A DNA stretch of 32,512 nt from Candidatus Woesearchaeota archaeon (GTDB lineage Archaea; Nanobdellota; Nanobdellia; Woesearchaeales; UBA10216), in NCBI GenBank assembly GCA_016188145.1, contig JACPIJ010000059.1:1-32512 (forward strand). The letters are read 5' to 3'. Under the pieces are notes generated by a model. That model saw nothing but the letters and a program-made list of their open reading frames with translations, was not told where the DNA came from and ran no database searches. Shown in pieces: positions 3,042-10,953 of the stretch. The translations under genes were made by a program, and so were the position numbers. How positions within the stretch are numbered: the stretch's first letter is position 1; each line of letters begins with the position of its first letter.

Positions 3042-6029
3042 ATGGCTGAGGCGGTTTCTGAGTTTGGGCCGATGGGCCAGCAGCCCGCTGCTGCGGCAGG
3101 GGCAGCAGGTATTCAGCTTACGCCGCAGCCCACCATTACTGCGGGCGAGCAGGGCGCCCCTGAGTTCTTTATTGACCTAAGGCCAAGGTTTGTGAAGCTT
3201 CCTGACATCAGCGTCAAGGAGAGCATCAACATCCGCTATCCGCTGCTGCCGCCGTATGCCTTTGCGCACATTTACTGGGACAATACGGCAAAGGAGCTTC
3301 TTTACTCTGTTGAGGAGGTGCTTCTGACAGATACGGAGAAGGAGCTTCTGAAGCTGATTCAGCTTGGCCTTGAGGAGATGATTAACATAAGCTATGCTTA
3401 CGCTTCCAAGTCCGACCTTCTGATAAAGTACCTTGAGAAGAACGTCCAGTCAATCCTTGCCGAGCTTGGCGCCAAGGTGTCAAGGCAGTCTTACCTCAAG
3501 ATAATGTATTACATCTACAGGGACTTTGTCGGGCTGAATGAGATTGAGCCGATGATGCACGACTTCTACATTGAGGACATAGAATGTAATGGCGTTGAAA
3601 CGCCCATTTACATCGTACACAGGAAGTACCAGAACATGCGGACCAACATCGTGTTCCCTGAGATGAAGAGGATTGTTGATTTTGTTGAAAAGCTCGCCCA
3701 GAAGACCGGCAGGTATGTCAGCTTTGCCAAGCCGCTCCTCGACGGCAGCCTTCCGGATGGAAGCCGTGTCAATGCAACCTACACCAGCGATGTAACTACG
3801 CACGGCCCCACGTTCACGATAAGGAAGTTTACAAAGGACCCGCTGACGCCTGTTCACCTTCTTGGCTACCAGACAGCAAGCGCTGAGATGTTCGGCTTTC
3901 TGTGGCTGGCTGTGGAGAATAAATTTAACATAATGGCTATTGGTGAGACGGCCTCCGGCAAGACAACATTCCTTAACTCAATACTTCAGTTTGTTCCTCC
4001 AGAGGCAAGGATAGTCTCGATAGAGGACACGAGGGAGCTTAACCTGGCTCACGAGAACTGGATTCCCGCCGTTGCCAGGGTGGGGTTTGGCATACCGAAC
4101 ATTCTGGGCAAGCAGTATGGCGAGATAAGCCTCTTTGACCTGCTCAGGGAAACATTCAGGCAGAACCCTGATTACGTTGTAGTTGGCGAGGTGAGGGGAA
4201 AGGAGACTTACGTGCTATTTCAGGGGATGGCTTCCATCCCGGGCGACCAGAAAATAATGGTAGTGCAGGATAACAAGCCAAAGCTGGTAAGGATTGATGA
4301 GATTACCGATGTTAGCAACTGTCAGACAGTAGCTTTTGACCCGGTTACTTGTGAGGCTAAGCTGCTGCGTGTCACAGCTCACATTAGGCATCCTGAACGG
4401 TCTGAGCTGGTCAGGATAAGGACAAAAACGGGAAGGGAAATAATAGCCACTCCTGACCATTCGCTGTTTACCATTGACAGCCAAAACCAAATGGTTGATG
4501 TCCCCGCTGGTGCTTTGAAGTCCGGGGATAAGCTCGCAATAGCAGCGAGAATACCGTGTGGTTATGCTGACATCAGCAAATTGAATCTGATAGAAATCAT
4601 ACCCAACATACGCATTTACGCTCCTGAGCTGATTAAGGAGGCTTCTCACAAGCTTGGCTATTACCAGGCTTCAGCTGTTTGCGGAGTGGCATCAATAACA
4701 GATTATTACGGCAATTTCAGGAGGGCAAGCCCTGCCTCAATGAGAAGGGACATGTTCTTCAGTTTAATGGAGGCTGCCGGTACACCGGTAGAAAAGGCGG
4801 AATTGAGTGTAAAACTTTTAAGAAAAAGCAGGCCTATACGTGCGGAACTGGAAATCACCGATGAATTCCTGAGGCTCCTGGGCTATTTCATTTCAGAAGG
4901 CACTGTCAACTTTTCCGGCAAAAACAGTTCCGTTGCCTTATACAACAAAAATCCGGAAGTGCTTGAAGACATGAGGCGTTGCTTGACTGAAGTAACAGGC
5001 ATTATACCTGCAGAGAGGGTAACGGCTCGCGGTTTTGGAGAGGCGACAGAGCTCAAAATTGGCAACAGGATTTACGCTGAGCTGTTGAAGGCACTATGCG
5101 GCAAAAGCAAGGAAAAGATGATGCCTGACTTTATTTTTGGCTTATCAAAAGAGAAAATAGGGCACTTCCTGTCCGGCTTGTTCACCGGCGATGGCCACAT
5201 AACGACTCAGTCCTTTGGGTACACAACGATTTTAAGGGGACTTGCCCAACAGTTGCAGCAGCTTTTGCTTGTTTACGGGATTGTCGCAGCTGTTTACAAA
5301 AATAAGACAAAAAAGACCTACGGCTTGGCATTTTACAGGGAGGAGGATAAAGAAGAGTTTCTTAAGCACGTTAAGGTTCTTGGCAGAAAGGATTTCAGAA
5401 GGAAGGCAAAGACGCAGAATAGCAAAAAAATAAATGATGTTTATCTCGACACAGTAAAAGAAATAGAGGTGCTGCAGCTGAAAGAGCCTGTGCCTGTGTA
5501 CGACCTGTCTGTTCCGAAGGCTGAAAATTTCCTTAGCGCGACAGGCATAATCCTTCACAACTCCGGGCACCCTTCGTTCAGCACGTTCCACGCGGCATCT
5601 GTGGAAACGATGATTCGCAGGCTTGAAACCCCGCCGATAAACCTGCCTGCCTCGCTTGTTGACTCCCTTGACATTGTCTGCAGCGTTATACACGTCAAGG
5701 ACCAGAGGCGGAACATCAGGAGGGTCAAGGATGTCAAGGAGATAATCGAGGTCAAGCAGCAGGTTGGCACCGTGGATTCCAACACTCTGTTCGAGTGGAA
5801 CAGGATTGAGGACAAGTTCGTTTACAACGGGAACTCGCACATTATGTCGGTAATAAGCAAGAGAACAGGCCGCACGATAAAGGAGCTGGAGGACGATGTC
5901 AGGCTTAGGGGGCTGCTCCTGACGAAGCTGCTTGAGAAGAACATGACGCACTACAAGGACGTCACAAGGATCGTTAACGAGTATTACAAGGACCCCGATG
6001 CGGTTTTGAGGTTTTTTAACATTAAATGA
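3042..6029 (+). CDS. Archaeal type IV pilus/secretion ATPase (FlaI/VirB11 family) with in-frame intein
   Basis: Walker A GETASGKTT, VVVGEVRGKETYVLFQGMA...SGHPSFSTFHAAS; extein halves flank an intein. Confidence 0.93.
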   Translation: MAEAVSEFGPMGQQPAAAAGAAGIQLTPQPTITAGEQGAPEFFIDLRPRFVKLPDISVKESINIRYPLLPPYAFAHIYWDNTAKELLYSVEEVLLTDTEKELLKLIQLGLEEMINISYAYASKSDLLIKYLEKNVQSILAELGAKVSRQSYLKIMYYIYRDFVGLNEIEPMMHDFYIEDIECNGVETPIYIVHRKYQNMRTNIVFPEMKRIVDFVEKLAQKTGRYVSFAKPLLDGSLPDGSRVNATYTSDVTTHGPTFTIRKFTKDPLTPVHLLGYQTASAEMFGFLWLAVENKFNIMAIGETASGKTTFLNSILQFVPPEARIVSIEDTRELNLAHENWIPAVARVGFGIPNILGKQYGEISLFDLLRETFRQNPDYVVVGEVRGKETYVLFQGMASIPGDQKIMVVQDNKPKLVRIDEITDVSNCQTVAFDPVTCEAKLLRVTAHIRHPERSELVRIRTKTGREIIATPDHSLFTIDSQNQMVDVPAGALKSGDKLAIAARIPCGYADISKLNLIEIIPNIRIYAPELIKEASHKLGYYQASAVCGVASITDYYGNFRRASPASMRRDMFFSLMEAAGTPVEKAELSVKLLRKSRPIRAELEITDEFLRLLGYFISEGTVNFSGKNSSVALYNKNPEVLEDMRRCLTEVTGIIPAERVTARGFGEATELKIGNRIYAELLKALCGKSKEKMMPDFIFGLSKEKIGHFLSGLFTGDGHITTQSFGYTTILRGLAQQLQQLLLVYGIVAAVYKNKTKKTYGLAFYREEDKEEFLKHVKVLGRKDFRRKAKTQNSKKINDVYLDTVKEIEVLQLKEPVPVYDLSVPKAENFLSATGIILHNSGHPSFSTFHAASVETMIRRLETPPINLPASLVDSLDIVCSVIHVKDQRRNIRRVKDVKEIIEVKQQVGTVDSNTLFEWNRIEDKFVYNGNSHIMSVISKRTGRTIKELEDDVRLRGLLLTKLLEKNMTHYKDVTRIVNEYYKDPDAVLRFFNIK
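4233..5561 (+). mobile_element. Intein with LAGLIDADG (DOD) homing endonuclease, 443 aa
   Basis: Ser1 N-terminus (SIPGDQKIMVVQDNKPKLVRID), TPDHSLF block B, LLGYFISEGTV and LSGLFTGDGHI endonuclease motifs, C-terminal FLSATGIILHN followed by +1 Ser; removal restores GMA-SGHPSFSTFHAAS. Confidence 0.93.
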
Positions 6030-6465: not shown

Positions 6466-8742
6466 ATGCCGCACAAAAACGCGCAACAGCTGCTGGGCGA
6501 GGTTGGTGAGCTGCTCAGGGAGTTTGAGGTCTACCTCGCGCAAAAGGAGTCCTTGTTTACCGAGCTGAAAAAGCTTGGCACTGATTACCAGGCTGGCAAG
6601 TACAGTTACGCCGAGTATGAGGAAAGGCAAAAGGCTGTCCTGAGGGGCAGGAGCAGGGCTGAGTGGGTCAATTATTATAACGCCTACATGTACTCGTTGC
6701 TTAAAAAGGCCGATTTTATCGTCTCACAGGCTTTTGCAATAGTTCATGATGATGATTCTTTCAACAGCTTGGAAGTGGTGGGCGGGGCAAAGCTGCCTAA
6801 ATCCGTGCAAAAATCTGCCGCCTCTGCCCCGGTCTCTGCCGCGGCTGCAGCAACCGATGCGGCAGCAGTTGCAGTTGCTGAAAATTCTGTTGTCCGGAAG
6901 CAGGAGGCGCAGCGGCATGCTGGGGTCTTCAGAATTGACAATGAGATTGAGCGCCTCAGGCAGCTGCTTGCTTCGCGGCCAGTAAGCCAGCAGCAGCTTG
7001 AGAAGGTAGAGCGGGCATTTGGGGGGTTTGAGGGCAGGCTTGAGGGCATAAAGGGAAAAATCAGCGTGAACATACCCAAAGCTGAAGAGCTTGCAGGGGA
7101 GGTTGAGCAATCCGAAAGGAAGGCTTTAAAGGCAAGGGCAGAAAGGAGTAAACAGCTTGCCAAGCAGCTTTCTAAAACAACCTCGGTTTCTCAGCCTTCC
7201 AAAGGCGTTTTTGCAGCAGCGATGAGGTCTGCGGCACTGGTTGCTAATGCTGCGAAGGCCGCGCTAAGATTTGTGGCCGGTGTTCCAGCCACTGCCGCCA
7301 AATCAGTCAGGAATGCTATAAGGAGAATCAGGGCGAGAGCGCCTTCAGTGCCAAAGGAGAAGCCAACAGGGCAGACCATGGAGCCAACCTTTTCAAAGCT
7401 GCCTTCACCGTCTGCCCTTTTCAATCGTAAAGAGCAACAGGTCGGGGTACCAACGCCCCTGCAGAAGGAAGGGATTTTCTCAGCGCTTAAGCAGCTTGTC
7501 AATCCGAAAAGCGCGAAGAAGAAGGGCATATTTGTTGAGGAAATAGTTGCAATGGAGAAACGTGCGAAGAGAAGCGAGATGCTGCCTCTCGAGCAGCGAA
7601 AAGAGCCTGCCGGGCTGGCCTTTGGCTGGTTTTCTGTAAGGGGACTCCTTAATGAGTTCACTGAGAAGTTCAGGTCAAGGCAGGAGCCGATTCTGGCTGA
7701 AAAAACAGCGATTCCAATGCACATGAAAAAGCTGAAGGAGATGCGCAAGAGGCTTTACGAGGAGGAAAAGCTTTCAAGCTTCGATGCTACGCTCCTGGCT
7801 CAGGAGGCCAGAAGGGTAAAGCGCATACTTGAGGTCGAGAAGCCTGAGGTTTACCATGGAAGCTCTGTTGGGCTGATAGCAAACCTTACCGTCAGGAAGA
7901 TAAGCCTGTTTCTTGTTGACGCGTTCCCGGAGTTTTTCGGCTTTCTTTACAACGCCCTTCGGGCAGCGAACGTCAAGGTGCTTTCAAATACCTACGTTAA
8001 CATAATGATTCTTTCGACCATGTTTGTAGTTGGCATTACGTTCGCTATACTGCTGCCATTGTTCCTGATACTGGGCTACCCGATTTACCAGATAGTCCTC
8101 AGAACCCTGATTTTCAGCTTTATTGCAGGATTTGCCTGTGCGACAGTCTTCTACGCCTACCCGTTCGTGAAGATTAAGGAACGGCGCAGGAATATCATGA
8201 CAAACATGCCGTTTGGCGTGAACCACATGGCTGCAGTCGCAACCTCTGGAGTCCCGCCATCTTCAATGTTTGAGCTCATTTCCGCCTCAAGGGAGTATGG
8301 CGAGATTGGAATTGAGGTCAAGAAGATAGTTGACTTTATCAACATTTTCGGCTACGACCTCCTGACCGCTATACGGACTGTTGCGGCTACCACACCTAGT
8401 CAGCAATTCAAGGAGTTTCTGGACGGGATGGTAAGCACTATAGAGACGGGCGGCGACCTTGACAGCTACCTCAGGCAGGAGGCTGACCAGGCTGCACTCA
8501 CTTACAACCTTGAAAGGCAGCGCTACAACGAGACGGTCAGCACCTACTCTGACATTTACACCGGCCTGCTGATTGCAGCGCCATTGTTTTTCGTTGCGGC
8601 AATGGCCCTTGTCAACCTGCTGGGAGGCACACTGGGCGGGATTGGAGTAGATGTAGTGATGGCGTTTGGGGCATACCTTGTGATACCGCTGCTCAACATA
8701 GGATTCCTCGTGTTCCTGCAGGTAACCCAGCCGGAGGTGTGA
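6466..8742 (+). CDS. TadC/FlaJ-like (GspF/T2SSF) pilus assembly membrane protein with long N-terminal extension
   Basis: C-terminal TM bundle and T2SSF-like region (NIMTNMPFGVNHMAAVATSGVPPSSMFELIS...); about 480 aa Ala/Lys-rich N-terminal region. Confidence 0.8.
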   Translation: MPHKNAQQLLGEVGELLREFEVYLAQKESLFTELKKLGTDYQAGKYSYAEYEERQKAVLRGRSRAEWVNYYNAYMYSLLKKADFIVSQAFAIVHDDDSFNSLEVVGGAKLPKSVQKSAASAPVSAAAAATDAAAVAVAENSVVRKQEAQRHAGVFRIDNEIERLRQLLASRPVSQQQLEKVERAFGGFEGRLEGIKGKISVNIPKAEELAGEVEQSERKALKARAERSKQLAKQLSKTTSVSQPSKGVFAAAMRSAALVANAAKAALRFVAGVPATAAKSVRNAIRRIRARAPSVPKEKPTGQTMEPTFSKLPSPSALFNRKEQQVGVPTPLQKEGIFSALKQLVNPKSAKKKGIFVEEIVAMEKRAKRSEMLPLEQRKEPAGLAFGWFSVRGLLNEFTEKFRSRQEPILAEKTAIPMHMKKLKEMRKRLYEEEKLSSFDATLLAQEARRVKRILEVEKPEVYHGSSVGLIANLTVRKISLFLVDAFPEFFGFLYNALRAANVKVLSNTYVNIMILSTMFVVGITFAILLPLFLILGYPIYQIVLRTLIFSFIAGFACATVFYAYPFVKIKERRRNIMTNMPFGVNHMAAVATSGVPPSSMFELISASREYGEIGIEVKKIVDFINIFGYDLLTAIRTVAATTPSQQFKEFLDGMVSTIETGGDLDSYLRQEADQAALTYNLERQRYNETVSTYSDIYTGLLIAAPLFFVAAMALVNLLGGTLGGIGVDVVMAFGAYLVIPLLNIGFLVFLQVTQPEV

Positions 8743-8799
8743 AAGTTAGGTGAAAAGTTTTTTAAAGAGCGCATATGCAAGAATACTTTAAAAGAGGAT

Positions 8800-8820
8800 A
8801 GAACAAAACATTATATAATC
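8800..8820 (+). promoter_or_regulatory. Putative archaeal TATA box for the three-gene cassette
   Basis: gaacaaaacattatataatc upstream of ATG 8850, in AT-rich DNA. Confidence 0.45.
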
Positions 8821-8849
8821 AAAAGGCATTCATAGGAACTGTGGTTTTA

Positions 8850-9050
8850 ATGACTAACGGTAATTATGAACAATTAAAAGCCAAATTTTTAAAAGCCTAT
8901 GCCAACGTGCCAGAAGATGAAAGAGCTCAGCCAATAATCCTTATTAACAGAAAGACTTATAACTGGAATACGGCATTTGACGAAATAACAGCTGATACAG
9001 AGTTAGGGCGTAGCATCATTATAAAAATGCACGATGTTGGTTTACTATGA
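8850..9050 (+). CDS. Small protein, cassette ORF1
   Basis: MTNGNYEQLKAKFLKAYANVPEDERAQPIILINRKTYNWNTAFDEITADTELGRSIIIKMHDVGLL; its stop overlaps the next start (ATGA). Confidence 0.7.
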   Translation: MTNGNYEQLKAKFLKAYANVPEDERAQPIILINRKTYNWNTAFDEITADTELGRSIIIKMHDVGLL

Positions 9051-9277
9051 GTGAGGACTTAATTTTGAAAGAAAGATCTAGAGAAGAGATAAAGGCTATT
9101 GTACTTGCAAGACTTGAAACGTTAAATAAAGACGCCAAAATTATGCTTATGGGTTTTGATAAGCCCTTAACCGTGAAAGACTTGATTAAAGAAGTTGAAA
9201 AAGATACAACACTCGGTAAAAAAGTGGTTGAAGTTCAATTTGCCTTCCTAAAAATGCTCGCGAATGGAGAGATTTAA
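9047..9277 (+). CDS. Small protein, cassette ORF2
   Basis: MSEDLILKERSREEIKAIVLARLETLNKDAKIMLMG...EKDTTLGKKVVEVQFAFLKML; overlaps both neighbours. Confidence 0.7.
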   Translation: MSEDLILKERSREEIKAIVLARLETLNKDAKIMLMGFDKPLTVKDLIKEVEKDTTLGKKVVEVQFAFLKMLANGEI

Positions 9278-9938
9278 GTTGAGGAAAACTATTCTTTTTA
9301 CTCGTCCCTATTATGATCAAGCAACGCAATATTTGCATTTTATTTCTGGGAAATTGGTTGACCAATTGAAGTACGTTAATGAACACACTGTTATTAACTT
9401 AGACGCTAAGACGGTATCAAGGGATTATTTTGAATCGGCTGTTAAAAGTCGCAACCCTAGACTGGTCGTTCTAAATGGCCACGGAAGCAAGGATGCCATA
9501 TACGGTGATGATAGAGAAAAAATATTGGATGAAAATAACGTTCACGTGCTGAATTCAAAAATAGTGTACGCTGTAGCCTGTGATTCGTTAGAAGGACTGG
9601 GAGAATTGGCGGTAAACAAGGGAAAAGCCACCAGTTATATTGGTTATGGGGCTAATTTTATGATAATAATTGACCCATCGCGAACTGCCGTGCCAACTAA
9701 AGATAAAAACGTGCAGCCGTTTATTCAGGTATATGCCATGACTGTTTTGAGCATAATATCTGGCTTAACGATAGCTAAATCGATTGAGAATACCAAGGCA
9801 AAGATAAAAAGCTTAATTAGGGAATATGGCGTATCAGGCATTATGGATAGATATGGTGATGCTCCTCTAATTAGATGGGCGTTACATTGGGATTTATTCT
9901 TTCTTGATATGCAAGGCGATGCGGAGGCATGTTTTTAA
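9264..9938 (+). CDS. CHAT/caspase-like (clan CD) peptidase-like protein
   Basis: Candidate catalytic His in RLVVLNGHGSKDAIYG and Cys in KIVYAVACDSLEGLG with downstream SYIGYGANF; start overlaps ORF2. Confidence 0.65.
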   Translation: MERFKLRKTILFTRPYYDQATQYLHFISGKLVDQLKYVNEHTVINLDAKTVSRDYFESAVKSRNPRLVVLNGHGSKDAIYGDDREKILDENNVHVLNSKIVYAVACDSLEGLGELAVNKGKATSYIGYGANFMIIIDPSRTAVPTKDKNVQPFIQVYAMTVLSIISGLTIAKSIENTKAKIKSLIREYGVSGIMDRYGDAPLIRWALHWDLFFLDMQGDAEACF

Positions 9939-10008
9939 TAGCTGAAATACGCCCAAGGGAACCTCCAAATAGAAAACTAATTAAACTGCTTTTCCGCAAG
10001 TAAATGTT

Positions 10009-10953
10009 ATGGTCAAGATACTGTTTGAGACGAGGCACAAGGCAGCGCTTGGGATTGCACTCCTGCTCCTGCTCGGCGACTTCTATTTTTTCAGCGGAAA
10101 GGTTTTCTTTGTGCCGTTTCTCGCTGTGGTCGCCATTGCCGCCACATTGCCGTACTGGCTTGATATTATGGCGGAAAACAGGAGGCAAAAGGACGTTGAA
10201 ACAAGGTTCCCCGAGTTTGTCAGGAACCTCTCTGGCGCCATAAAGTCTGGTATGCCCGTAGCTCAGGCTGTTGTTCACGTTTCAGAAGGCGACTATGGCT
10301 CACTGACTCAGCATCTTAAAAAGCTTGCCTGGCAGATAGAATGGTCAATCCCTTTCCACAGGGCCTTCATTAACTTTGGGAAGGAAACAGAGAACCCTGT
10401 GATAAGGAGGGCCATAGCGACTGTTATTCAGGCTGAGCAGGCAGGCGGCAACATTGAGGACGTCCTGGTTTCAGTCACGGAATCCTTGCTGCAGATTAAG
10501 AAGATTAAGGAAGAGCGCAAGTCAAGCATACACGCGCAGGTGATGCAGAGCTACATAATCTTTTTCGTGTTCCTGGGCGTTATGATTGTCATACAGAACC
10601 TCCTTATCCCGTACATGATCCAGTTCGGGGCTACGAATACGGAAACGGGAGTTACAGCAGCGCAAATCGGCGGGGGCATAAACCTGCAGGCGCAGCTTGA
10701 CTTTTCCTCGCCTGTGAATTTTTTCATCTCTCTTGGCGGCTGGTTGATGAGCCTTAACGGCATATTCCTGCTGATGTCCATGATTCAGGGATTCTTCGCC
10801 GGCGTTGTGCTCGGCAAGCTTGCCGAGGGCGATTTGACTTCAGGGCTGAAGCATTCGCTTATTATGATGACTGTCGCTTTCATGCTGATAACATTTGCCC
10901 AAAGCATCCTGCAAACTGCTGGTGCCGGTGTGCCAGGGATTGCGGCGGGGTAA
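10009..10953 (+). CDS. TadC/FlaJ-like (GspF/T2SSF) pilus assembly membrane protein
   Basis: FPEFVRNLSGAIKSGMPVAQAVVHVSEGDYGSL...VIRRAIATVIQAEQAGGNIEDVLVSVTESL plus TM helices. Confidence 0.85.
   Translation: MVKILFETRHKAALGIALLLLLGDFYFFSGKVFFVPFLAVVAIAATLPYWLDIMAENRRQKDVETRFPEFVRNLSGAIKSGMPVAQAVVHVSEGDYGSLTQHLKKLAWQIEWSIPFHRAFINFGKETENPVIRRAIATVIQAEQAGGNIEDVLVSVTESLLQIKKIKEERKSSIHAQVMQSYIIFFVFLGVMIVIQNLLIPYMIQFGATNTETGVTAAQIGGGINLQAQLDFSSPVNFFISLGGWLMSLNGIFLLMSMIQGFFAGVVLGKLAEGDLTSGLKHSLIMMTVAFMLITFAQSILQTAGAGVPGIAAG

Follow-up and report, generated by a model that had tools for sequence, protein, structure and literature searches.

The three overlapping genes A, B and C that lie between two pilus genes of a Candidatus Woesearchaeota archaeon are, on balance, probably a conflict module of a toxin-antitoxin-like and/or antiviral kind that is self-contained and passes between hosts by horizontal transfer; A and B would form its control unit and C its effector. 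CHAT-fold proteases are already known in conflict systems; what is undescribed, as far as our searches show, is both partner families, the bare form of the cassette and its host range in DPANN archaea. In prokaryotic immunity, caspase-like and CHAT proteases are known mostly from large machines that are multidomain or linked to CRISPR. The CHAT-fold protease predicted here is accompanied by two tiny partners and may represent a minimal form, and its hosts are archaea with reduced genomes in which few described defence systems were found. Furthermore, the cassette is small enough for direct expression and reconstitution, and the control of a stand-alone CHAT protease is therefore testable.

Layout and insertion site of the cassette

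The coordinates of the cassette and its surroundings are given in Table 1, in which "the window" is the whole stretch of 32,512 nucleotides that was analysed. The three overlapping genes of the preliminary description were confirmed as open reading frames at 8850-9938. The overlap between A and B has the sequence ATGA in the window and in 27 of the 33 loci measured. The homologs of C begin at the position of the TTG codon at 9279, and with this start the C protein of the window has 219 aa. The lower GC content attributed to the cassette is real: it is 0.372 for A-B-C, and the flanking stretches of 1 kb have 0.512 and 0.507. The TATA-like element proposed as its own promoter is also present, and such a box is enriched upstream of A across loci: a match of at least 7/8 to TTTAWATA occurs within 70 bases upstream of A in 71% of the homologous loci, compared with 32% of the shuffles.

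Table 1. Positions of the cassette, its predicted functional elements and its flanking genes (window coordinates, except for the last line).
Feature	Position	Strand	Remarks
T2SSF/TadC-type gene, left flank	6466-8742		Pfam
Entire insert separating the tadC-type genes, approximate ends	8743-9967	+	Absent from sister genome G180
TATA-like promoter element ATTATATA	8810-8817	+	About 40 nt upstream of A; 7/8 match to the archaeal TATA consensus
Gene A	8850-9050	+	66 aa; new family; invariant R25, W39, E45 and T50; probable paralog of B
Gene B	9047-9277	+	76 aa; new family; predicted helix, hairpin, helix, helix
Gene C	9264-9938	+	224 aa from ATG; CHAT-fold cysteine protease (predicted)
Predicted catalytic His73 codon (NGHG)	9480-9482	+	Directly after strand 67-71; invariant 47/47
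Predicted catalytic Cys106 codon (ACDS)	9579-9581	+	Directly after strand 100-104; invariant 49/49
Second TadC-type gene, right flank	10009-10953		Pfam T2SSF
Tn7-like cargo of CP065518.1	L141 2457-10167		SIR2_2, cytosine methylase, double GHKL-ATPase, receiver-like, CHAT-like protease, SIR2

Both flanking genes match T2SSF in Pfam, in agreement with the location between two TadC-type genes that had been reported. In the sister genome G180 (L097), the two tadC-type genes are joined by 12 bp and the cassette is absent. The empty site indicates that the inserted segment is larger than had been described and extends over approximately 8743-9967. The tadC-tadC site is also empty in the genomes G176, G024 and G212. 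At the same site, another sister genome (G381; L096, 476-1459) carries a UPF0175 antitoxin-like gene together with a DUF3368/PIN gene, and a VapC-like PIN open reading frame was recognised there by eye in G146 (L099). Given that some relatives have nothing at this site and others have different cargo, we consider it a hot spot of this family for small accessory modules. A functional link between the cassette and the pilus genes was rejected on the same grounds, and the cassette is regarded as an insert at a pilus site with no evident link to the pilus.

Several further observations concern this site and the rest of the window. The cargo of the site at L098 (G384), L100 (G003) and L104 (G380) consists of a 323-aa protein, an AlaX-like gene and a methyltransferase-like gene, the last two read by eye. 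At 3042-6029 of the window, an intein that contains LAGLIDADG endonuclease domains splits the gene of a TadA/PilB-type secretion ATPase (E 3e-26 for Intein_splicing in Pfam). On the minus strand at 877-1841, a nucleotidyltransferase with a winged helix is encoded beside a 146-aa HEPN-like protein, a possible MNT-HEPN toxin-antitoxin pair.

Predicted fold and active-site residues of C

An AF2 model of C, built with 13 homologs, reached a pLDDT of 84.6 and a pTM of 0.86. Its best Foldseek match is the SAVED-CHAT structure 8tl0 (E 5e-6, probability 1.0), and all five PDB matches with E < 0.001 are chains of the SAVED-CHAT protease filament. The next structural matches are gingipain K, gingipain R and caspases (6i9a, 4rbm, 1cvr, 6nag and 6kmt). 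According to the DSSP assignment of the model, His73 and Cys106 follow directly upon two neighbouring core strands, which is the clan CD arrangement; the geometry of the dyad was judged by this secondary-structure position together with the fold match. The GHGS (NGHGS) and ACDS motifs pointed out in the preliminary description are real, and the two residues are invariant in every copy that covers the respective position (47 and 49 copies), at identities that fall below 30%. On the strength of the model, C is thus a predicted CHAT-fold, clan CD cysteine protease, with putative proteolytic activity, as had been expected from the motifs. C is a single-domain protein with no sensor or extra domain. 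The Pfam CHAT family PF12770 matches neither C nor 25 of its homologs, nor anything else in the genome of the window.

Linkage of the three genes and selection

A and B were found directly upstream of C in all 30 of the loci found first, including one with a shortened A that is joined to B in a fusion and one where only part of A is in view. When a profile of C was applied to 360 genomes of the phylum, all 45 near-full copies of C had B directly upstream; the remaining copies of B in these genomes number three and lie beside remnants of C or at a contig end. A was seen at every locus that was read. Moreover, the matrices of pairwise distances between loci are correlated among the three genes, and none of 500 permutations gave a correlation as high. 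The preliminary description had named two outcomes that would speak against it, namely a predicted structure without a His/Cys dyad geometry and three genes that never co-occur elsewhere. The His and Cys are placed as expected and the three genes are strictly linked; therefore, neither outcome was observed.

The intact copies are under purifying selection, with a dN of 0.27 and a dS of 1.8 for A, and with a pN of less than 0.2 for B and C, in which synonymous change is saturated. The surroundings are mainly ordinary housekeeping genes and not clear defence islands: the 100 proteins encoded nearby belong to 78 different Pfam families, and among the families listed for these proteins the only recurrent neighbours are DUF2283 (three) and winged-helix proteins (two).

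The partner proteins A and B

The tail D[T]xLGxx(I/V)(I/V), which the preliminary description had noted in both A and B, is real and extends into a longer similarity. A comparison of the two profiles with hhalign gave a match of 48 columns, which includes the shared D-T-x-L-G-x-x-hydrophobic tail, with a score of 22.8; this score was reached by none of 300 column-shuffled controls (mean 10.0, maximum 19.7). Although the hhalign probability is only 29%, the score exceeds all of the shuffled controls, and we therefore consider the suspected paralogy of A and B to be probable, as judged from these sequence profiles. The characterisation of both proteins as highly charged holds for B (37% charged residues) and less so for A (26%).

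The AF2 model of B (pLDDT 82.7) consists of a helix, a hairpin and two helices, and no fold match with E < 0.1 was found for it in the PDB. The maximum of hydropathy over 19 residues is 1.26 in A and 0.96 in B across all members, and by this measure neither family contains a membrane-spanning or pore-forming segment. Three candidate relationships of B were rejected. A ribbon-helix-helix DNA-binding fold is absent from the model, the prefoldin-like similarity (E 0.5) is attributable to chance, and the match to Cas11a in PADLOC (E 0.011) was likewise read as chance.

Spread, transfer and decay

The cassette occurs in approximately one genome in eight of the phylum, and in some genomes there are two or even three copies that are unrelated to one another. 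The window makes up all of contig 4 of an archaeal MAG of 1.18 Mb, and the relatives of this MAG in named collections are Woesearchaeota/Nanoarchaeota MAGs, which points to a DPANN archaeon of that kind as the host. No C was found in annotated phages. Host families are scattered on the tree of C, in which 24 changes are needed, compared with a minimum of 16 and a shuffled mean of 27.4. The copy in G260, a genome of the same genus, is only 27% identical to that of the window, compared with 69% for the copy in the MAG nzgw63; the 69%-identical copy L031 aligns only over 8792-9938 in a translated search. Furthermore, two genomes of different host families share 90.4% nucleotide identity over 1095 bp, which correspond exactly to A-B-C, and their flanks are unrelated. 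Therefore, what is transferred as a unit is the cassette itself. It includes neither a transposase nor an integrase, and a search for terminal repeats found none.

Stops, deletions or fragments of the cassette were found in approximately 10 genomes, and one of the deletions removes the His. Such common decay is as expected for a dispensable conflict module. Three remnants are worth recording individually. At L094 (5377-5727), a second cassette is reduced to A joined by a deletion to the end of C and lies approximately 1.4 kb upstream of an intact one. At L076 (2483-2839), what appears by eye to be a Cas1-like N-terminal fragment adjoins a decayed B-C remnant, and at L077 (2099-2608), the B gene stands in frame behind a PIN-like fragment, also recognised by eye, and only a remnant of C is left.

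A bacterial relative in transposon cargo

A distant homolog of C (44.7 bits with the C profile) is encoded on the plasmid CP065518.1 of Stenotrophomonas rhizophila as the third and last gene of a set. It is preceded by the gene of a double GHKL-ATPase protein and then by that of a receiver-like protein, whose motifs were read by eye and which has no Pfam match. On one side of the set are TnsD/TniQ, SIR2_2 and cytosine methylase genes, and on the other side are the genes of SIR2, TnsA, a C-terminal fragment of a Mu-type transposase and TniB. The set is thus carried as cargo by a Tn7-like element, where defence genes are typically located, and its C-type protease is placed under a partner pair that may itself be controlled by a signal. 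PADLOC gave no match for the ATPase-receiver-CHAT set, with the ATPase scanned from residue 161 on. The bacterial spread of C is under-sampled, because the profile used for the contig search was derived from a narrower set of sequences.

Homology of the C-terminal tail of the receiver-like protein to B was considered and is not claimed. The resemblance looks convincing by eye; however, 6 of 200 shuffled controls matched it, and in the profile scan the tail was aligned in another register, with other helical segments scoring almost as high.

Proposed mechanism and alternatives

We infer a toxic or antiviral role of the cassette from its mobility, from a hot spot shared with toxin-antitoxin pairs, from its frequent decay and from the bacterial relative in transposon cargo. 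According to the mechanism that we propose for what would be a selfish or antiviral protease module, A and B would act together as a control unit, either by holding C inactive or by directing it. A virus, or the loss of the module, might disturb this control; C would then cleave one or more cell proteins, and growth or infection would be halted. The proteolytic activity of C, the binding of A and B to it, its toxicity, an antiviral role and the trigger are all putative elements of this scheme, and so is the part of adaptor or sensor subunits that the preliminary description had suggested for A and B. A more specific version, in which the cassette would be a toxin-antitoxin-like system with a CHAT-fold protease as toxin and a paralogous pair of small proteins as its control, a bare 1.1-kb DPANN cassette whose effector is shared with a bacterial system of ATPase/receiver control in Tn7-like cargo, is put forward tentatively, as a possibility that falls somewhat short of probable. 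We favour A and B as regulators of C for three reasons: C itself lacks a sensor, the place of A and B is taken by sensor-like proteins in the bacterial relative, and neither A nor B shows a toxic-looking feature such as a membrane segment.

The same linkage could be read in another way, with A and B as the substrates of a signal-activated C that cuts one or both of them and releases a harmful fragment. Csx30 of Craspase and the bacterial gasdermins are precedents for this type of arrangement. The strict linkage of the two partners to C, with their genes ahead of it, would suit such a role, and in both A and B the last two helices are connected by a similar G-(K/R)-(K/R) turn, which would be a plausible basic cleavage site. 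However, the G-K-K turn is not invariant (A of the window has LGRS), a fragment of either protein would bring no membrane-spanning or pore-forming segment with it, and a C without a sensor domain would be missing its own trigger. We consider this arrangement unlikely. A further alternative, which we think quite unlikely, is that A-B-C is a regulatory protease operon of a housekeeping or adaptive kind, passed on by transfer and with no role in conflict. The mainly housekeeping neighbours and the purifying selection on all three genes would agree with such an operon, whereas its patchy occurrence, its multiple unrelated copies per genome, its frequent decay, an insertion hot spot common to toxin-antitoxin pairs and the position of the bacterial relative, which lies next to SIR2 in transposon cargo, would not. 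Finally, dead caspase-like domains are common in the effector position of some conflict systems (PMC7159879), and C might similarly be a catalytically dead CHAT fold that serves as a binding scaffold. Given that the His and Cys persist wherever they are covered, even among the most divergent copies, this is very improbable.

Comparison with known systems

No named system had obviously matched the cassette in the preliminary description, and this assessment stands. Pfam, NCBIfam and PADLOC gave no significant match for A, B or C, the Pfam search extending across 26-31 members of each family (30 for A), and none of the PADLOC system models was matched by the cassette. No description of the A-B-C cassette was found in the open-access literature that was searched.

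The SAVED-CHAT protease of type III CRISPR-type signalling (8tl0), the best structural match of C, shares its fold with C and likewise has its His and Cys placed behind neighbouring strands. C differs from it as a single domain without SAVED or another sensor and in having A and B as partners. There is no sequence-level match between C and the solved SAVED-CHAT chains, neither a SAVED fusion nor a nearby Cas10/cyclase was found, and no cas gene recurs among the neighbours in the families listed. Gingipain (C25), C11 and caspases of clan CD, to which the next structural matches belong, are related to C by fold, whereas C is short, consists of the one domain and comes with the genes of two small partners.

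The EACC1-caspase two-gene conflict system, in which a small-protein gene is followed by a caspase-superfamily gene (PMC7159879), resembles the cassette in this order of genes; however, EACC1 has a transmembrane helix, whereas A and B have none. Neither A nor B matches a Pfam EAD, DLD or EACC1 family. With regard to the effector-associated and Death-like adaptors, the model of B is a hairpin with three helices and not a six-helix bundle, and it has no Pfam match. The set of S. rhizophila shares with the cassette a C homolog as the last of three genes, and has a double GHKL-ATPase and a receiver-like protein where A and B stand in the cassette.

In its layout, the cassette corresponds to a toxin-antitoxin system: a compact, overlapping operon with a small partner upstream of the effector, mobile and patchy. 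As in type II systems such as UPF0175 with DUF3368/PIN, small upstream partners overlap the effector gene and decay is frequent, and the two kinds of module use the same insertion site. The cassette differs from these systems in that its effector is a predicted protease and in that it has two partner genes, not one, which is unusual for a classic toxin-antitoxin pair.
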